NCBI GenBank assembly: GCA_949840915.1
Contig: CATKXY010000001.1
Coordinates: 62,001-126,000, forward strand
DNA: 64,000 nt
DNA from: an uncultured Lachnospiraceae bacterium
Lineage (GTDB): Bacteria; Bacillota; Clostridia; Lachnospirales; Lachnospiraceae
Direction: 5' to 3'
Part shown: positions 372 through 6,720 of the stretch, piece after piece
How the letters are laid out: the number at the start of each line of letters is the position of its first letter
Position numbering within the stretch: position 1 is the stretch's first letter
The notes under the pieces: model-generated
The model's database searches: none
What the model saw: only the letters and a program-made list of their open reading frames with translations
Told to the model about the DNA's origin: nothing
Program-made: the position numbers and the translations under genes

Positions 372-2111
372 ATGGAAAAAATCAAAAAAATTTGGGCAGA
401 TCATAAACTTTTTTTATGCATTAATTTTGTTTGTATTTTATTTTTGAGTATTTATTACGGATGCCACATTACGGAGATCAATACCGTGTGGGAACTGGCT
501 GACGAGTTTGGTTTTCTGGCCAATGCGGAATATCTGGCGGGTCACAATTGGCCGCATATGATCACGTCATATTACGGGTATGGCTATTCTTTGGCGCTGA
601 TCCCTTTGTTCTATTTGTGTAAAACCAGCGTACAACTGCTTCAGGGCGTTGTCATAGTCAATATCATATGCATTTTGCTGATTTATGTGATTAGTCTCAC
701 GCTGATGTGCAAATTATGTGACTTTATACATAAAAATGTACTGGCTCTGATCGCCGCCCTTCTCTGTTTGTATCCTTATCTGGCGGCCAATACTCTGAAG
801 GTAACCTGTGAGTGTTTTTTGACGATGCTGACATGGCTGGTATGGCTGCTGCTGTATCAGGCTCTTGAGACAAAAAAGAAGAGGTATTTCATTTTATTGG
901 GTATTGCGGTGCCGTATGCATTTTTCACCCACACCAGAGGGCTTGTATTAACGATTACCGTCTTCTTGATCTTTCTGATATTATGTATCAGAAAGCACAT
1001 GAAATTAAACAGTTTTCTTATATTTGGCGCCGTCTTAATCCTATCCTACGGAGCCGGATTTTTGCTGAAAAATGATATAGTGGCACATGTGTATACTCCG
1101 GATATAAGCATCGACACGGATGGAACGGGAGCTGTTGTAAATCTCATTAATCTGGAATGGATACTGACGAGAGTCGAGTGGTTTTTTGCTGATTTTAAGT
1201 TTTATGTTTATGCTTTTTTATGCAAAAATGTATATTTATTTGTGGCAAGCCTGGGTTTGTGCCATTTAGGAATTTTCGCGGGGATCAGAAATCTTTGGTA
1301 CGCGCATAAAGAAAAGCAGAGCTTTTCTGCTTCGGATTGGGTGAAATTCAGCATTGTCTTATCCTTTATCCTTATGATTGGGATGATATTAGCGGCCGGA
1401 GCCGGAATCCTGGAGAATGTTGCTTACTTTTATTATGGCAGGTACTTTGAGTATTTGGTATGTCCTCTCATTTTTCTTGGTATTGCGCATTGTGTCGCGG
1501 AGGGATTGGAGGAAAAGCAATTTTTCAAGTGGTTTGTTTTTTGGGGAGTCTGTGCGTTAGGCGGTATGCAGCTTTCCAATTATTTAAAAAGTCAGGTTAT
1601 GAGTATTGATACGAACAGAATTGCAGCGTTTTCTTTTGTTACAAAGGAAGTGAACCAATATCCCGAGGTTTTGGAATACTTGATTTTATACGGCAGTCTG
1701 GGAATATTTCTTATCTTTTTGCTCTGCCGGAAAAAAGAAACCAGGAAGTTCATACTAGTTCCGCTTATCATACTATTTTTAGTAAATGATTCGGCCACCA
1801 TACAACAGATTACTTATATCAATGAAAGGGATAGCGGCGATAATTATATTGCAGATTATCTGATTGAGAATGTCAGTGATGACGACGTTTTCTTTGTGAA
1901 TACAAAATATCTTTATGACAGATTCTATATGAGGATGCAGGTGCTGCTGGGCGATAAGAGACTGCGGGTGGTTGAAGTGGAGGATGTGGAAACGATACCC
2001 GCAGGAGCATATTTTGTAGCATATAATAATGATAGTACCGAGGCGCAGCTTGCCCCCGTAGCTGAGACCGTGATGCCGGGCAGAGCGTTTAAATTATACC
2101 AGAAACAATAA
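372..2111 (+). CDS. Polytopic membrane protein, GT-C-like glycosyltransferase
   Basis: A 579-residue protein with about twelve hydrophobic segments and few charged loops. After the first membrane segment (around residue 40) the loop holds an acidic D-E pair in WELADEFGF. This position and pattern are typical of GT-C fold enzymes that use polyprenyl-phosphate sugars (PMT/ArnT-like). A soluble-looking tail follows the last membrane segment, from roughly residue 490. It starts three bases after the upstream GT4 stop and sits 17 bp before a GT2 gene, so it belongs to the surface-glycan operon. The role inferred is transfer of a lipid-linked sugar outside the membrane; the substrate is unknown. 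An O-antigen-polymerase-like role is an alternative. Confidence 0.6.
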   Translation: MEKIKKIWADHKLFLCINFVCILFLSIYYGCHITEINTVWELADEFGFLANAEYLAGHNWPHMITSYYGYGYSLALIPLFYLCKTSVQLLQGVVIVNIICILLIYVISLTLMCKLCDFIHKNVLALIAALLCLYPYLAANTLKVTCECFLTMLTWLVWLLLYQALETKKKRYFILLGIAVPYAFFTHTRGLVLTITVFLIFLILCIRKHMKLNSFLIFGAVLILSYGAGFLLKNDIVAHVYTPDISIDTDGTGAVVNLINLEWILTRVEWFFADFKFYVYAFLCKNVYLFVASLGLCHLGIFAGIRNLWYAHKEKQSFSASDWVKFSIVLSFILMIGMILAAGAGILENVAYFYYGRYFEYLVCPLIFLGIAHCVAEGLEEKQFFKWFVFWGVCALGGMQLSNYLKSQVMSIDTNRIAAFSFVTKEVNQYPEVLEYLILYGSLGIFLIFLLCRKKETRKFILVPLIILFLVNDSATIQQITYINERDSGDNYIADYLIENVSDDDVFFVNTKYLYDRFYMRMQVLLGDKRLRVVEVEDVETIPAGAYFVAYNNDSTEAQLAPVAETVMPGRAFKLYQKQ

Positions 2112-2128
2112 AACACGGAGGTATAAAA

Positions 2129-3136
2129 ATGAAGGAGACAGACAGGATAACGGTGATCATTCCTGCATATAATGCGGAACAGTATATTCGTAAATGCGTT
2201 GATTCAATCTTAGGACAGACCTGGGAAAATCTGAGGCTGATCCTGGTAGACGACGGGAGTACGGATAAAACTTCACAGATCGCGGATGAGTATGCTGTCA
2301 GGGACAGCCGTGTGTCGGTAATTCACAAATTGAATGAGGGAGCGGAGCTGGCCAGAAAAGCGGCATTGGATGTGATTGATTCTCAAGGGTTTATCATGTT
2401 TGTTGATGCGGACGACTATTTGCTGAAAAGAGATTTGCTGCAACAGCTTGTCGAGACCAGTATTGCCGAGTCGGCGGATATTGTGTGCTTTGATTTTTTG
2501 CATAAGGGAAAACGGGGATTGAATATTGTCAAGGCAGAAACCCTGGATGTGCAGGAGGCGCTGGGCAATATGCTGCTGAGACATAAAATAGACGGTAATT
2601 TGGTCTGCAAATTGTACCGGGCGAGTATCGTTAAGGCGCAAAATGTTCATTTTGTAAATAAAAGAAATTGTGATTTTGTAATAGTGGGCACAATGCTTAC
2701 CAATGCCGGGAAGATTTATTTACTGCCTGTTTGCGGATATTATTATCGCTATGTGGAAAACAGCCAATCGAGAAACCAGTGCCTGCATGACAGAGAGGAG
2801 CAATATGAGCAGGAGGCATATCGTTTTTATGAAAAGACAGCGCTGGCTTATCCGAAGCTGAAGCCATACGCTGAGGCTCATTGGTTTAGTGTGCTGATTT
2901 ATGTCTGCATAAAGATGGAAAAGGACAGCTCTGTGCGAAGGAGCACGGCTCGGTTCCTGAATTACAAAAAACATTTTCGTAAACAATGGGCACAGGTTAT
3001 TGTAAACCCGCATGTAACGGCAAGAGATAAAATACAATACTGGCTGTGCTTTTTGAATTTATTCCGGAGCTTGTTCAGGTTGAAGATCATATGCGGCAGG
3101 GCAGTTGAGGGGAGGACCGGACAGAGACGAGTTTGA
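2129..3136 (+). CDS. Glycosyltransferase family 2
   Basis: A 335-residue cytoplasmic inverting glycosyltransferase. It has the GT-A N-terminus TVIIPAYNAEQYIRKCVDSI, the LVDDGSTDKT nucleotide-binding turn at about residues 38-47, and the metal-binding DxD at about residue 93 (VDADDY). The second half is variable, as usual in the family, and has a weakly basic C-terminus. A clear ribosome binding site (GGAGGT) precedes the ATG. The stop codon overlaps the TTG start of the following acyltransferase (TTGA), which implies translational coupling. It probably adds one residue of a cell-surface polysaccharide repeat unit; the sugar specificity cannot be assigned. Confidence 0.85.
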   Translation: MKETDRITVIIPAYNAEQYIRKCVDSILGQTWENLRLILVDDGSTDKTSQIADEYAVRDSRVSVIHKLNEGAELARKAALDVIDSQGFIMFVDADDYLLKRDLLQQLVETSIAESADIVCFDFLHKGKRGLNIVKAETLDVQEALGNMLLRHKIDGNLVCKLYRASIVKAQNVHFVNKRNCDFVIVGTMLTNAGKIYLLPVCGYYYRYVENSQSRNQCLHDREEQYEQEAYRFYEKTALAYPKLKPYAEAHWFSVLIYVCIKMEKDSSVRRSTARFLNYKKHFRKQWAQVIVNPHVTARDKIQYWLCFLNLFRSLFRLKIICGRAVEGRTGQRRV

Positions 3137-4180
3137 ACAGACAAAGCAGTTTCCGATATGAATATGTGGATATATTAAAATTAGTTTGTGCTTTTTTGGT
3201 TATATGCATTCATAATCCGTACAAGAATGCATTTTGGTTTTGGGTGGAACCGTGGACAAGGATTGCAGTGCCCCTGTTTTTTATGATTTCGGGTTATTTT
3301 TATATAAATGAGCATCAATTAACAGGGGGGGGGGCAAATTGTCAAAATATTTAAGCTTTGCATTCTCTGGTACACGATATATTGGATTATGGAGTTTGGT
3401 GTGAAGCTGCATCCTGTGTCTATGCAGGGATGGACAGAATATACCAGAGAAAACTTTTTTGCGGAATTTATGAAATTTTTGCTGGCCAACAAACCGATGT
3501 TAAATCTGGGCGGAGCTTTATGGTATTTATTTGCGTTGGGATATGTGTACCTGATCTATGGATTTGCTGCAAAGACGCGTAAAATATCTTATTTGATAAG
3601 AGCAGGAGCCCTGCTTATGATTCTGCAATATGTTTTCGGAATGTATTCTTTTGTTTTTGGAATGCCCACCGCTGCCATCAGGACAAGAAACTTTTTGATG
3701 ACAGGTCTTCCGTTTTTCGGACTGGGAATATGGCTGAGACAGACTTTGAAAAGCAAACCCCAAATACTGAAGCACAGTGGTTTTATCAAAGTGATGTTGA
3801 TTTGTTCTTTATTTTTGAGTGTGGTAGAAAAATATATTCTTGTCAAGTATATAGGTTTAGAAATCAGTTCGGATATCTACCTGTCTACCTTGTTTCTCGC
3901 AGCGGTGCTTTTTGTTTATGCGCTTGCGAAGGAGGAGACAAGGCTGAGGCCGTCTCCGGTCACGAATCTGGCTGCGGCAGGGCGAAAATACAGCACGGGA
4001 GTTTATCTGGTCCACACCATTGTTCTTTGCAGTATCGATCAGCTATTATATCGGCTGGGAGTGCCGCCGGGAAATATGATCTACAAATTGTTTCCGGTAG
4101 TGATTTTTTTAGTGTCACTGTTCTGTGTAATGATTGGTACACACCTGGTAAAAAAAATACCCGGATATACTTCATATTGA
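3133..4180 (+). pseudogene. Acyltransferase family 3 membrane protein, split by a poly-G frameshift
   Basis: The N-terminal part (TTG start at 3133, overlapping the previous stop) begins YEYVDILKLVCAFLVICIHN, the first helix and catalytic-His region of acyltransferase-3 proteins. It then carries RIAVPLFFMISGYF. It runs into ten G at 3325-3334 and stops at 3354. From 3335 the adjacent frame continues QIVKIFKLCILWYTIYW and runs through about eight membrane helices to 4180. Removing one G (nine in the tract) would join both halves into one protein of about 348 residues, the usual family length. As read, the gene is off. The likely role when intact is O-acetylation of the surface polysaccharide. 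A slipped-strand phase switch, a fixed mutation, or a sequencing error are all possible. Confidence 0.75.
3325..3334 (+). repeat. Homopolymeric G tract (10 G) inside acyltransferase gene
   Basis: Ten consecutive G after AACA. The length is out of frame; 9 or 12 G would restore the reading frame. It lies about 190 bases into the coding region, where truncation would abolish function. Confidence 0.95.
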
Positions 4181-4274
4181 CATGCATTCGCTGATTGAAA
4201 TATACTTTATGATGATATGTGCAATCAAAGCAACCGATTAAGAAGTGCAGATTATGCGGTGGAGAGGAACGCTT

Positions 4275-5213
4275 TTGGATAAGACTATTTTTTTCCTTAT
4301 ATTAAATTATAATACATTTCAGGAGACAGAAAACTGTATTCGTACCATCAGGGAAATGGATGAGGTTCCCTATAAAAAGCATATTGTTGTTGTGGATAAT
4401 GCTTCGACAAAGGAGCTTGATAAAAAGGCCGAATTGTTAAATGCCGAGGATGTAACCTTATTATGCCTGGATCAAAATATGGGTTTTTCTCATGGCAATA
4501 ATGTCGGATACAAATATATTCGCCAATTAAGAGAGCAGGGGGGGGTGATAATTGTGTGCAATAGCGATATTGAATTTCGTGACAAGCGCTTTTTGACAAA
4601 GGTCCTGGATGCGTATGAAAAGACAGGCTTTGACATTCTCGGGCCGGATGTGTGGTGTGAAGCTCAGAGAGAAAAGAGCTGGAAGGGCCATCAGTCTCCT
4701 GCATTTCCCTGGGAGGGCAGAAAAAATTATGTTAAGTATCAGATTCGCAGTAACCAACACGAAAGAAACCGGCTTTTGAATACGGAGTCCGGAGGATTTC
4801 AAATAATCTGCACACTTTTTGACCGACTGATCAGCCTTAAACATATGATATTGACGAGGGTGGTATATAAAAAATGGAGACTGCAATATCATGAGGATGT
4901 TGTTGTCCACGGTTCCTGTTTTGTGGTGTCAGACAATTTTGTCAAACAGGAGGAAAAGCTGTTTTCCCCTGAGACACAATTCTATTTCGAGGAACTGCTG
5001 TTATATTTGCGTATAAAGGATAACGGATATAAGTCCGTATATGATCCCGGGATACAGGTGTGGCATATGCAGGGGCAGGCTACCGGCAGGGTAGCGGATA
5101 ACGAGCGGGCGCGAAGGTTATTTGCTGTTAATCACCTGATTAAAAGCGGGAAAATTTATTTAAATGAATTGGACCGGAGAGAAACGGGAGGTTCGGAGGA
5201 TGGAATCGGGTAA
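4275..5213 (+). CDS. Glycosyltransferase family 2, rhamnosyltransferase-like
   Basis: A 312-residue GT-A enzyme. The start is taken as TTG 4275, giving MDKTIFFLILNYN, because GGAGAGGA lies just upstream; an in-frame ATG at 4245 is possible but has no good ribosome binding site. Motifs: LILNYNTFQET at the N-terminus, VVVDNAS in the nucleotide-binding turn, NMGFSHGNNVGY, and CNSDIEF as the metal-binding site. The late segment FYFEELLLYLRIKDNGY resembles the catalytic region of WbbL/rhamnosyltransferase-type proteins. The coding frame contains a run of eight G at 4538-4545, in frame. It overlaps the start region of the flippase gene by 14 bp. Confidence 0.82.
   Translation: MDKTIFFLILNYNTFQETENCIRTIREMDEVPYKKHIVVVDNASTKELDKKAELLNAEDVTLLCLDQNMGFSHGNNVGYKYIRQLREQGGVIIVCNSDIEFRDKRFLTKVLDAYEKTGFDILGPDVWCEAQREKSWKGHQSPAFPWEGRKNYVKYQIRSNQHERNRLLNTESGGFQIICTLFDRLISLKHMILTRVVYKKWRLQYHEDVVVHGSCFVVSDNFVKQEEKLFSPETQFYFEELLLYLRIKDNGYKSVYDPGIQVWHMQGQATGRVADNERARRLFAVNHLIKSGKIYLNELDRRETGGSEDGIG
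4538..4545 (+). repeat. Homopolymeric G tract (8 G) in GT2 gene
   Basis: Eight consecutive G in the codons for Gln-Gly-Gly-Val, about 265 bases into the gene. As read, it keeps the frame open. It is the second long G run within 1.3 kb of otherwise AT-rich DNA. Confidence 0.9.
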
Positions 5214-6720
5214 AAAGTATGCAATGAGAACTACAATTTCACATATTGTCCTACAGGTGGTCCTGGCTCTTTCCGGACTTATCGTTCCGAAACTGATCTT
5301 ATCCATATATGGTTCCACGATGAACGGACTGATCAATTCCATTACACAGTTTTTAACATATGTGGCGCTGGTGGAAGCAGGGATAGGAAATGCGGCAATT
5401 GTAGCTTTATATCAGCCGCTCGCCACGTCGGATCATGAAAATGTCAATAAGATTTTAGCATATGCTAAAAAGAAATATTTGCGGGCGGGATTTTTGTATC
5501 TGACGCTCGCATTGTTATATTCGTTTGCTTATGCTTTTTGGGTGCGCGGCGAAGTGGATATTACGCTGGCCTTTGAGATGGTTCTGTTGATTGCTTTTTC
5601 GTATGCGATAGATTATCTGCTTATCGGAAAGTATAAGGTTCTGTTAGTCGCCGATCAAAAATACTACATTGTCAATTTTTTTAAAGGGTTTTCCACATTA
5701 TTTACGATGCTTGCCTCTATTATAATACTTTTGCAGGGGCAGTCTGTTTTATTGGTGAAAGTATTGGCGGTAGTCATTCGGATTGCAGAGGCCTGGGGAA
5801 TCGCTTATTATGTCAGGAAAAAGTATGATTGGGTACACTTTGAGAAGGACTCCGGCGAGATCCATCTCGGGCAGCAGAAAAATGCTTTGGTTCATCAGAT
5901 CGCGTCGGTGGTGATCTATAATACGGATCTGGTGGTTCTGACTTTATGTCTTACAGGAGATTCATTAAAGGAGATCAGTGTATATACGGTTTATGCAATG
6001 ACATTTGGTGTAATAAATAATGTCATGGTGGCGTTTACCAATGGCGTTTCCGCAATGATGGGGAGACTGAATGCTCAGGGACAGATAAATAGACTGAATC
6101 AGTTTTTCGGTAAATTCGAGGCGGCCTATATGGCGGGTATGTTTTTACTCTATACCTGTTATGCGGTGCTGGCGGTTCCGTTTACCGCATGTTATACAAA
6201 AGGTGTGACGGATGTGAATTACATCCGTTATATAGTTGCGCTGCTTTTTGCTTTCAACGGAATCACTTGCCAGATGCATGATCCTGCCGGTACATTGATT
6301 CTGGCGGCCGGCCGGTTTAAAGAGACCCAGAAGTATGTGATAATAGAGGCAATTGCCAATATTGTAATATCGCTCGCACTGGTTTTCCGATATGGTATTG
6401 TAGGGGTTCTGATCGGGACACTGATCGGGCATATTATATCGGCATTTGGCTTGATCGGATATGCCAATAGAAGCATTTTAAAACGCAGGCATAACAAAAC
6501 AATCGAACGTATCTTAAGAAACGGAATCCTGATGATACTGGTTATTTATATAGAGCTGCCGTTCATTCGTAATGCAAATGATTGGCTGACCTGGGTGTTG
6601 ACCGCGGCAGGCTGTTTTGCGGTTAATTGCGTTTGCTTTGGGGCATTCAATCTGTTGTTTGAATTTAAGCAGATAGGGCTTGGATTTAGAAATAAGGATG
6701 CGGGTAAGAATAAGAAATAA
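5200..6720 (+). CDS. Polysaccharide flippase (Wzx / MOP superfamily)
   Basis: A 506-residue membrane protein with about twelve to fourteen hydrophobic helices. It begins MESGKKYAMRTTISHIVLQVVLALSGLIVPKLIL and then GSTMNGLINSITQFLTYVALVEAG, the usual Wzx/oligosaccharide flippase N-terminus (first two helices). The start at ATG 5200 is preferred over the earlier ATG 5164 because GGGAGG lies eight bases upstream and the earlier start would overlap the GT2 gene more. The inferred role is flipping undecaprenyl-pyrophosphate-linked repeat units across the membrane. It is the last glycan gene of the locus; the ATPase gene starts 27 bp after its stop. Confidence 0.85.
   Translation: MESGKKYAMRTTISHIVLQVVLALSGLIVPKLILSIYGSTMNGLINSITQFLTYVALVEAGIGNAAIVALYQPLATSDHENVNKILAYAKKKYLRAGFLYLTLALLYSFAYAFWVRGEVDITLAFEMVLLIAFSYAIDYLLIGKYKVLLVADQKYYIVNFFKGFSTLFTMLASIIILLQGQSVLLVKVLAVVIRIAEAWGIAYYVRKKYDWVHFEKDSGEIHLGQQKNALVHQIASVVIYNTDLVVLTLCLTGDSLKEISVYTVYAMTFGVINNVMVAFTNGVSAMMGRLNAQGQINRLNQFFGKFEAAYMAGMFLLYTCYAVLAVPFTACYTKGVTDVNYIRYIVALLFAFNGITCQMHDPAGTLILAAGRFKETQKYVIIEAIANIVISLALVFRYGIVGVLIGTLIGHIISAFGLIGYANRSILKRRHNKTIERILRNGILMILVIYIELPFIRNANDWLTWVLTAAGCFAVNCVCFGAFNLLFEFKQIGLGFRNKDAGKNKK

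Follow-up and report, generated by a model that had tools for sequence, protein, structure and literature searches.

We report a gene for an acyltransferase-3 (AT3) protein that is split at a run of ten G and is probably a poly-G contingency locus. It lies in the 64-kb stretch of Lachnospiraceae DNA analysed here (the window, taken at its full length). The state of the gene is best explained by a slippage switch, a kind of system already known. This reading is supported by the tract, the frame break, the conserved halves, the cluster context and the finding of similar tracts in AT3 and other glycan genes within and outside the genus. An earlier note on this DNA had proposed a phase-variable AT3 candidate; the split at the tract, the conserved halves, the glycan cluster and the recurring tracts speak for it, whereas the nearest homologues, which lack the tract, speak against it.

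Mechanistically, the gene product would be a membrane AT3 protein acylating the surface polysaccharide made by the surrounding cluster, the acyl group most likely being acetyl. In this strain the G10 tract would act as a slippage-prone repeat at which DNA polymerase gains or loses G at high frequency, and at any time the cells would form a mixture, some making the whole enzyme and others the truncated 73-aa piece. The sequenced consensus would then be the OFF state, with reversibility and an effect on the surface presumed. Taken as a whole, namely a surface AT3 protein switched by G10 slippage with an OFF consensus, we regard this account as likely.

More interesting than the single locus is the genus-wide tract repertoire. 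It is possible, and we suggest it tentatively, that some species of the genus carry genome-wide poly-G contingency loci with a Campylobacter-like logic, re-decorating surface glycans via acyl-, methyl-, fucosyl- and glycosyltransferases, and that this is partly a domain-adding switch in which tract length decides whether an extra C-terminal half is fused. If so, strain surfaces would flicker within a population, which would matter for phage resistance, for antibody coating and for how broken genes in metagenome assemblies are to be read.

The split gene and its surroundings

According to the earlier note, both halves of one acyltransferase stand in adjacent frames and the break falls exactly at ten consecutive G, and this was borne out (Table 1). 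The TTG start overlaps the stop of the upstream gene, the first frame stops just after the tract, and the shifted frame then runs without a stop to the one that ends the second part. Both pieces match PF01757 (acyltransferase-3) with an E value of 1.4e-11, above the curated cut-off, and they cover complementary ranges of the 326-position profile (2-60 before the tract, 77-318 after it). Their summed length agrees with that of intact homologues (351 and 347 aa). Matched by eye, the 73-aa piece contains the K-x10-H form of the R/K-x10-H motif described for TM1 of AT3 proteins (PMC9558356, in excerpt). As expected of a contingency locus, the G tract is inside a coding gene and its length sets the frame.

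Table 1. Features of the window and further G9 sites of the genus (locus:position or locus)
Feature	Position	Strand	Frame at tract	Basis
Membrane glycosyltransferase-like protein (PMT_2)	372-2111	+		Pfam
Glycosyltransferase family 2 (GT2), directly upstream, overlaps AT3 start	2129-3136	+		ORF, Pfam
AT3 acyltransferase, N-terminal part, 73 aa	3133-3354	+		PF01757; TTG start, K-x10-H motif
G10 tract, breakpoint of reading frame	3325-3334	+		Run located in window sequence
AT3 acyltransferase, C-terminal part, ~280 open codons	3335-4180	+	Shifted	PF01757; homologue alignment
GT2 with G8 tract, next gene after AT3	4245-5213	+		PF00535
Second G tract, G8, inside the next gene (GT2)	4538-4545	+	In frame	Run search
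518-aa protein, no Pfam match	5164-6720	+		ORF, Pfam
Census AT3 site	L073:2461		Shifted	
Census AT3 sites	L074:497, L184:1991, L077:4040, L077:14548		In frame	
Census AT3 site	L078:9631		In frame, ends early	
G9 outside census, MBOAT	L090		In frame	
G9 outside census, epimerases	L091, L216		Shifted	
G9 outside census, DUF6056 protein	L218		Shifted	
G9 outside census, AT3	L217		Shifted	
G9 outside census, FkbM gene	L086		In frame	
G9 outside census, GT2	L178		In frame	

Neither half is visibly decayed, since the 351-aa intact homologue aligns at 78% identity before the tract (59 aa) and 68% after it (276 aa); for the 347-aa homologue the values are 71% and 52%. With the codons after the break open throughout, the earlier description of the rest of the frame as well preserved agrees with our data.

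Such a gene could also have lost its function recently, a slippage mutation having fixed it in the off state without any adaptive switching, and the tract being just the spot where this occurred. P0002 and P0003, its closest homologues (68% and 52% identical), are intact and lack a long tract there, the glycine run being absent from both, and no close orthologue was found among 116 relatives, where a search with the C-terminal part gave matches in three, all weak (27-32% identity). These results agree with a simple loss, as does the further decay of a tract-bearing AT3 gene of the genus (L078), which illustrates that decay is possible in such genes. Against it, the frame after the break has stayed open and 68% identical to its homologue, and long G runs, although otherwise rare in the strain's own genome, turn up across the genus in genes of the same classes. 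We consider a fixed loss unlikely.

For the slippage switch, the tract-free homologues mean that the tract is a young feature of the gene. Because the closest homologues are tract-free and the matches in relatives few and weak, a long-maintained switch at this locus is unsupported. Intact homologues with 9 or 12 G, which the earlier note had named as support for switching, were not what we found here, P0002 and P0003 having no long tract. Orthologues that keep the tract at different lengths were likewise not found for the window gene; they were found for two other related AT3 pairs (see below). A search for strain-level alleles with the C-terminal part returned the gene's own cluster (P0001) and homologues at 68%, 52% and 32%, and a search of viral contigs for the window gene gave no match. 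Structure prediction of P0002 (mean pLDDT 46) was of no use.

A possible surface role is suggested by gene context, the neighbours forming a cluster of glycan genes. The 518-aa protein downstream may be a polysaccharide flippase. Upstream of the window lie genes for a GT2, a GT1, a GHMP kinase, a nucleotidyltransferase-HAD fusion, a SIS protein and another GT2, a set that we take to resemble a heptose-nucleotide pathway. Separately, the first part of the AT3 gene (3133-3324) has a G+C content of ~33% compared with 42-45% in both neighbouring glycosyltransferase genes, and could fit a transfer or mosaic origin; the second part (~41%) does not differ clearly from its neighbours.

Long G runs in the genome and the genus

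The genome avoids long G runs. Its 2,596,032 bases hold five G runs of at least eight, and the G10 of the AT3 gene is the longest. A first-order model of the window predicts 0.29 G/C runs of at least ten per 64 kb, so that against composition the G10 tract in the window is not significant alone, and runs of eight give the same message. Applied genome-wide, the same model predicts ~133 runs of at least eight, against the five present, and ~12 of at least ten, against one. Two of the five are separated by 1.2 kb and occupy adjacent genes, the G10 of the AT3 gene and the G8 of the following GT2 gene (P ~0.009, post hoc). The sole other run of at least nine is a G9 at C11:82048 (L172:4049-4057), where a methyltransferase gene seems to change frame; PF13649 matches the right piece, and the left piece was assigned to the gene by eye. 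The adjoining gene may encode a MATE-like transporter. Loss of mismatch repair was considered as a cause of the tracts and rejected, since MutS is above the cut-off in the strain's own genome and in G144, G172, G178 and G006.

We then compared 72 genomes of the genus (71 at least 90% complete, plus the strain's own). Exact G9 runs numbered 157 and were confined to 38 genomes, 34 being without any; the richest five had 23, 13, 11, 11 and 10. Thirty of the 38 genomes contributed one G9 site each, a neighbouring site being used for the contig-end loci L052 and L063, and 30 sites of a non-repetitive G-rich word from the same genome set served as controls. G10 tracts at contig ends (e.g. L018, L034, L035) were excluded as likely artefacts. 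At 20 of 30 G9 sites and 4 of 30 controls, the longest frame on one side of the site disagrees with that on the other (Fisher P 4.9e-5), a measure that is meaningless at non-coding sites, and some G9 sites are in non-coding DNA.

Pfam, run on 20 of the 30 G9 sites, gave matches at 13: three AT3, one hexapeptide, one GT2 and eight non-glycan (two Ser/Thr kinases, two histidine kinases, a sigma factor, a transporter, an MT-A70 methyltransferase and an AraC/cupin protein). At all 13 the G stood on the coding strand, as did the control word at 21 of 30 sites. AT3, glycosyltransferase, hexapeptide and MBOAT families were absent from the 30 control sites, which carried one DegT aminotransferase, one GalP uridyltransferase and one penicillin-binding transpeptidase, with five sites lacking a family. 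Matches were listed to an E value of 1e-5 for controls and 1e-3 for G9 sites; when the control tally was redone at 1e-3, no AT3 or glycosyltransferase appeared among the 25 of 69 families listed. A profile built from AT3 proteins of the genus overlooked tract-bearing AT3 genes that Pfam caught, and the genus counts therefore rest on Pfam.

AT3 genes average 6.4 per genome, or ~0.2% of the DNA (taking 1.1 kb per gene), and their presence at 3 of 30 G9 sites is a strong excess over that share (P 3.6e-5). Pooling the glycan families, Pfam matches only, gives 5 of 30 against 0 of 30 controls, a borderline contrast (P 0.052). This contrast counts against the switch, as do the eight non-glycan families among the 13 matches, the presence of MutS, the decayed AT3 gene in L078 and the non-coding G9 sites.

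A census covered every exact G9 run (47) of three tract-rich genomes, 24 of the 47 sites being scanned by Pfam. Six of the 47 runs fall in AT3 genes by Pfam, with 0.16 expected (P 1.2e-8), in genomes chosen post hoc for their tract number and with neighbouring tracts that are not independent. Seven more sites are in AlgX-like, fucosyltransferase, FkbM, hexapeptide, sugar-transferase and two GT1 genes, and the genes for a DUF6056 membrane protein (L183, shifted) and a DUF1919 protein hold one site each; the remaining scanned sites have no family or one such as a sensor kinase (L059). All quoted counts rest on the 30-site sample and this census; some other regions were hand-picked and are not unbiased. 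Across the genus, G9-G10 runs occur in AT3, MBOAT, hexapeptide and AlgX-like acyltransferases, in glycosyltransferases and in FkbM methyltransferases, in frame or shifted.

Further tract genes deserve mention. At L075:9289, L076:8024, L032:1501 and L078:5301 a G9 or G10 run links a whole glycosyltransferase or TupA gene in frame to a duplicate C-terminal half, and at L023:1501 the in-frame partner is instead a second whole GT2-like gene; the joined copies share 40-56% identity. A G12 in genome G154 (L030:1501-1512) marks a frame break near the end of a gene that by eye resembles a type III restriction-modification Mod gene. Such Mod genes are known for phase variation.

An assembly or sequencing error, with the true tract in frame and the gene constitutively intact, would make the split spurious. 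Base calling is difficult in homopolymers this long. Annotated G-tract lengths can deviate from measured ones (PMC9187656, in excerpt), and both runs of at least nine in the strain's own genome sit at apparent frame breaks. The frame offsets at G tracts of the genus, however, run in both directions, which a one-sided calling error would not produce, and, judged by ORF coverage, a greedy list of 49 ORFs fills most of the window and leaves no gap above 770 bases. Moreover, even a frame-keeping tract would be slippage-prone. We consider such an error improbable.

Tract-bearing AT3 genes beyond the genus

We scanned a collection of genome contigs (genome_contigs, described as 84,980 species) for runs of at least nine G located 12-42 bases after the AT3 motif. 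The scan returned 18 loci: three from Neisseria, two from Oceanimonas, five from Bacteroidales, three from Clostridia MAGs, one from the culturable Pseudobutyrivibrio ruminis DSM 9787 (L109) and four others. A broad AT3 profile matched at least one piece at all 18 (weakest E 2e-4) and none of 30 control proteins. Relative to the frame of the motif itself, 8 loci stay in frame and 10 are shifted; seven of the shifted loci retain 169-323 open codons in another frame and three have short frames. As the scan was limited to one AT3 position and left tract-free AT3 genes uncounted, it bears neither on site preference nor on enrichment.

Two related pairs differ in tract length and frame state together: L094 (G10) is shifted and L097 (G9) in frame, and likewise L107 (G10) is shifted and L105 (G9) in frame. 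These pairs bear on a further alternative, in which the tract is fixed and transcriptional slippage or ribosomal frameshifting yields some full-length protein from unchanged DNA. Long homopolymers can make polymerase slip at the RNA level. Motifs prone to RNA-polymerase slippage are also mentioned in work on bifidobacterial G tracts (PMC9187656, in excerpt). That frame state in related AT3 genes varies with tract length nevertheless fits a length change in the DNA, and we consider expression from a fixed tract very improbable. As a separate observation, L094 and L097 share 85% identity up to the tract and 45% beyond it, a pattern that could reflect domain replacement at the tract or merely a conserved N-terminus.

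Comparison with known systems

Simple-repeat phase variation is best known in Gram-negative mucosal pathogens and has been little described in the present lineage. Among the literature matches listed (titles and abstract starts, with few subscription journals), none concerned poly-G phase variation in Lachnospiraceae or related Clostridia. For Clostridia and the gut, a 2025 phase-variation review gives invertible promoters and recombinase systems as examples (PMC11868660, in excerpt), and an article on homopolymeric tracts does not mention Lachnospiraceae in the excerpt used (PMC2831843). The breadth of poly-G use in this genus may be new.

In another gut commensal, Bifidobacterium breve UCC2003, the genes bbr_0113 and bbr_1889 are likewise split into two ORFs at G10/G11, and slippage rejoins the ORFs (PMC9187656, in excerpt). 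They differ from the window gene in encoding sortase-dependent pili rather than an acyltransferase, in belonging to a different phylum, and in that their slippage was measured by deep sequencing, also in mouse faecal samples, whereas the window case is known from assembled sequence alone (PMC9187656, in excerpt). The oafA gene of Haemophilus influenzae belongs to the same enzyme class: it encodes an AT3 protein whose on/off switching changes surface (LOS) O-acetylation, although through a tetranucleotide repeat and in a Gram-negative pathogen (PMC9558356, in excerpt). The same source reviews AT3 phase variation and describes AT3 proteins as moving several kinds of acyl group. In Campylobacter jejuni cgtB, a poly-G tract (8-9 G) again lies in a surface-glycan enzyme gene and a frameshift turns it off, but the enzyme is a galactosyltransferase and switching was shown experimentally (PMC6437147, in excerpt). 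In the three Neisseria AT3 genes of our scan (L093, L101, L104), the G tract (G10-G16) follows the TM2 motif at the same place in the AT3 gene as in the window, while in L093 and L104 the frame after the tract is much longer (563 codons). Neisserial AT3 genes are themselves known to vary in phase through poly-G tracts.
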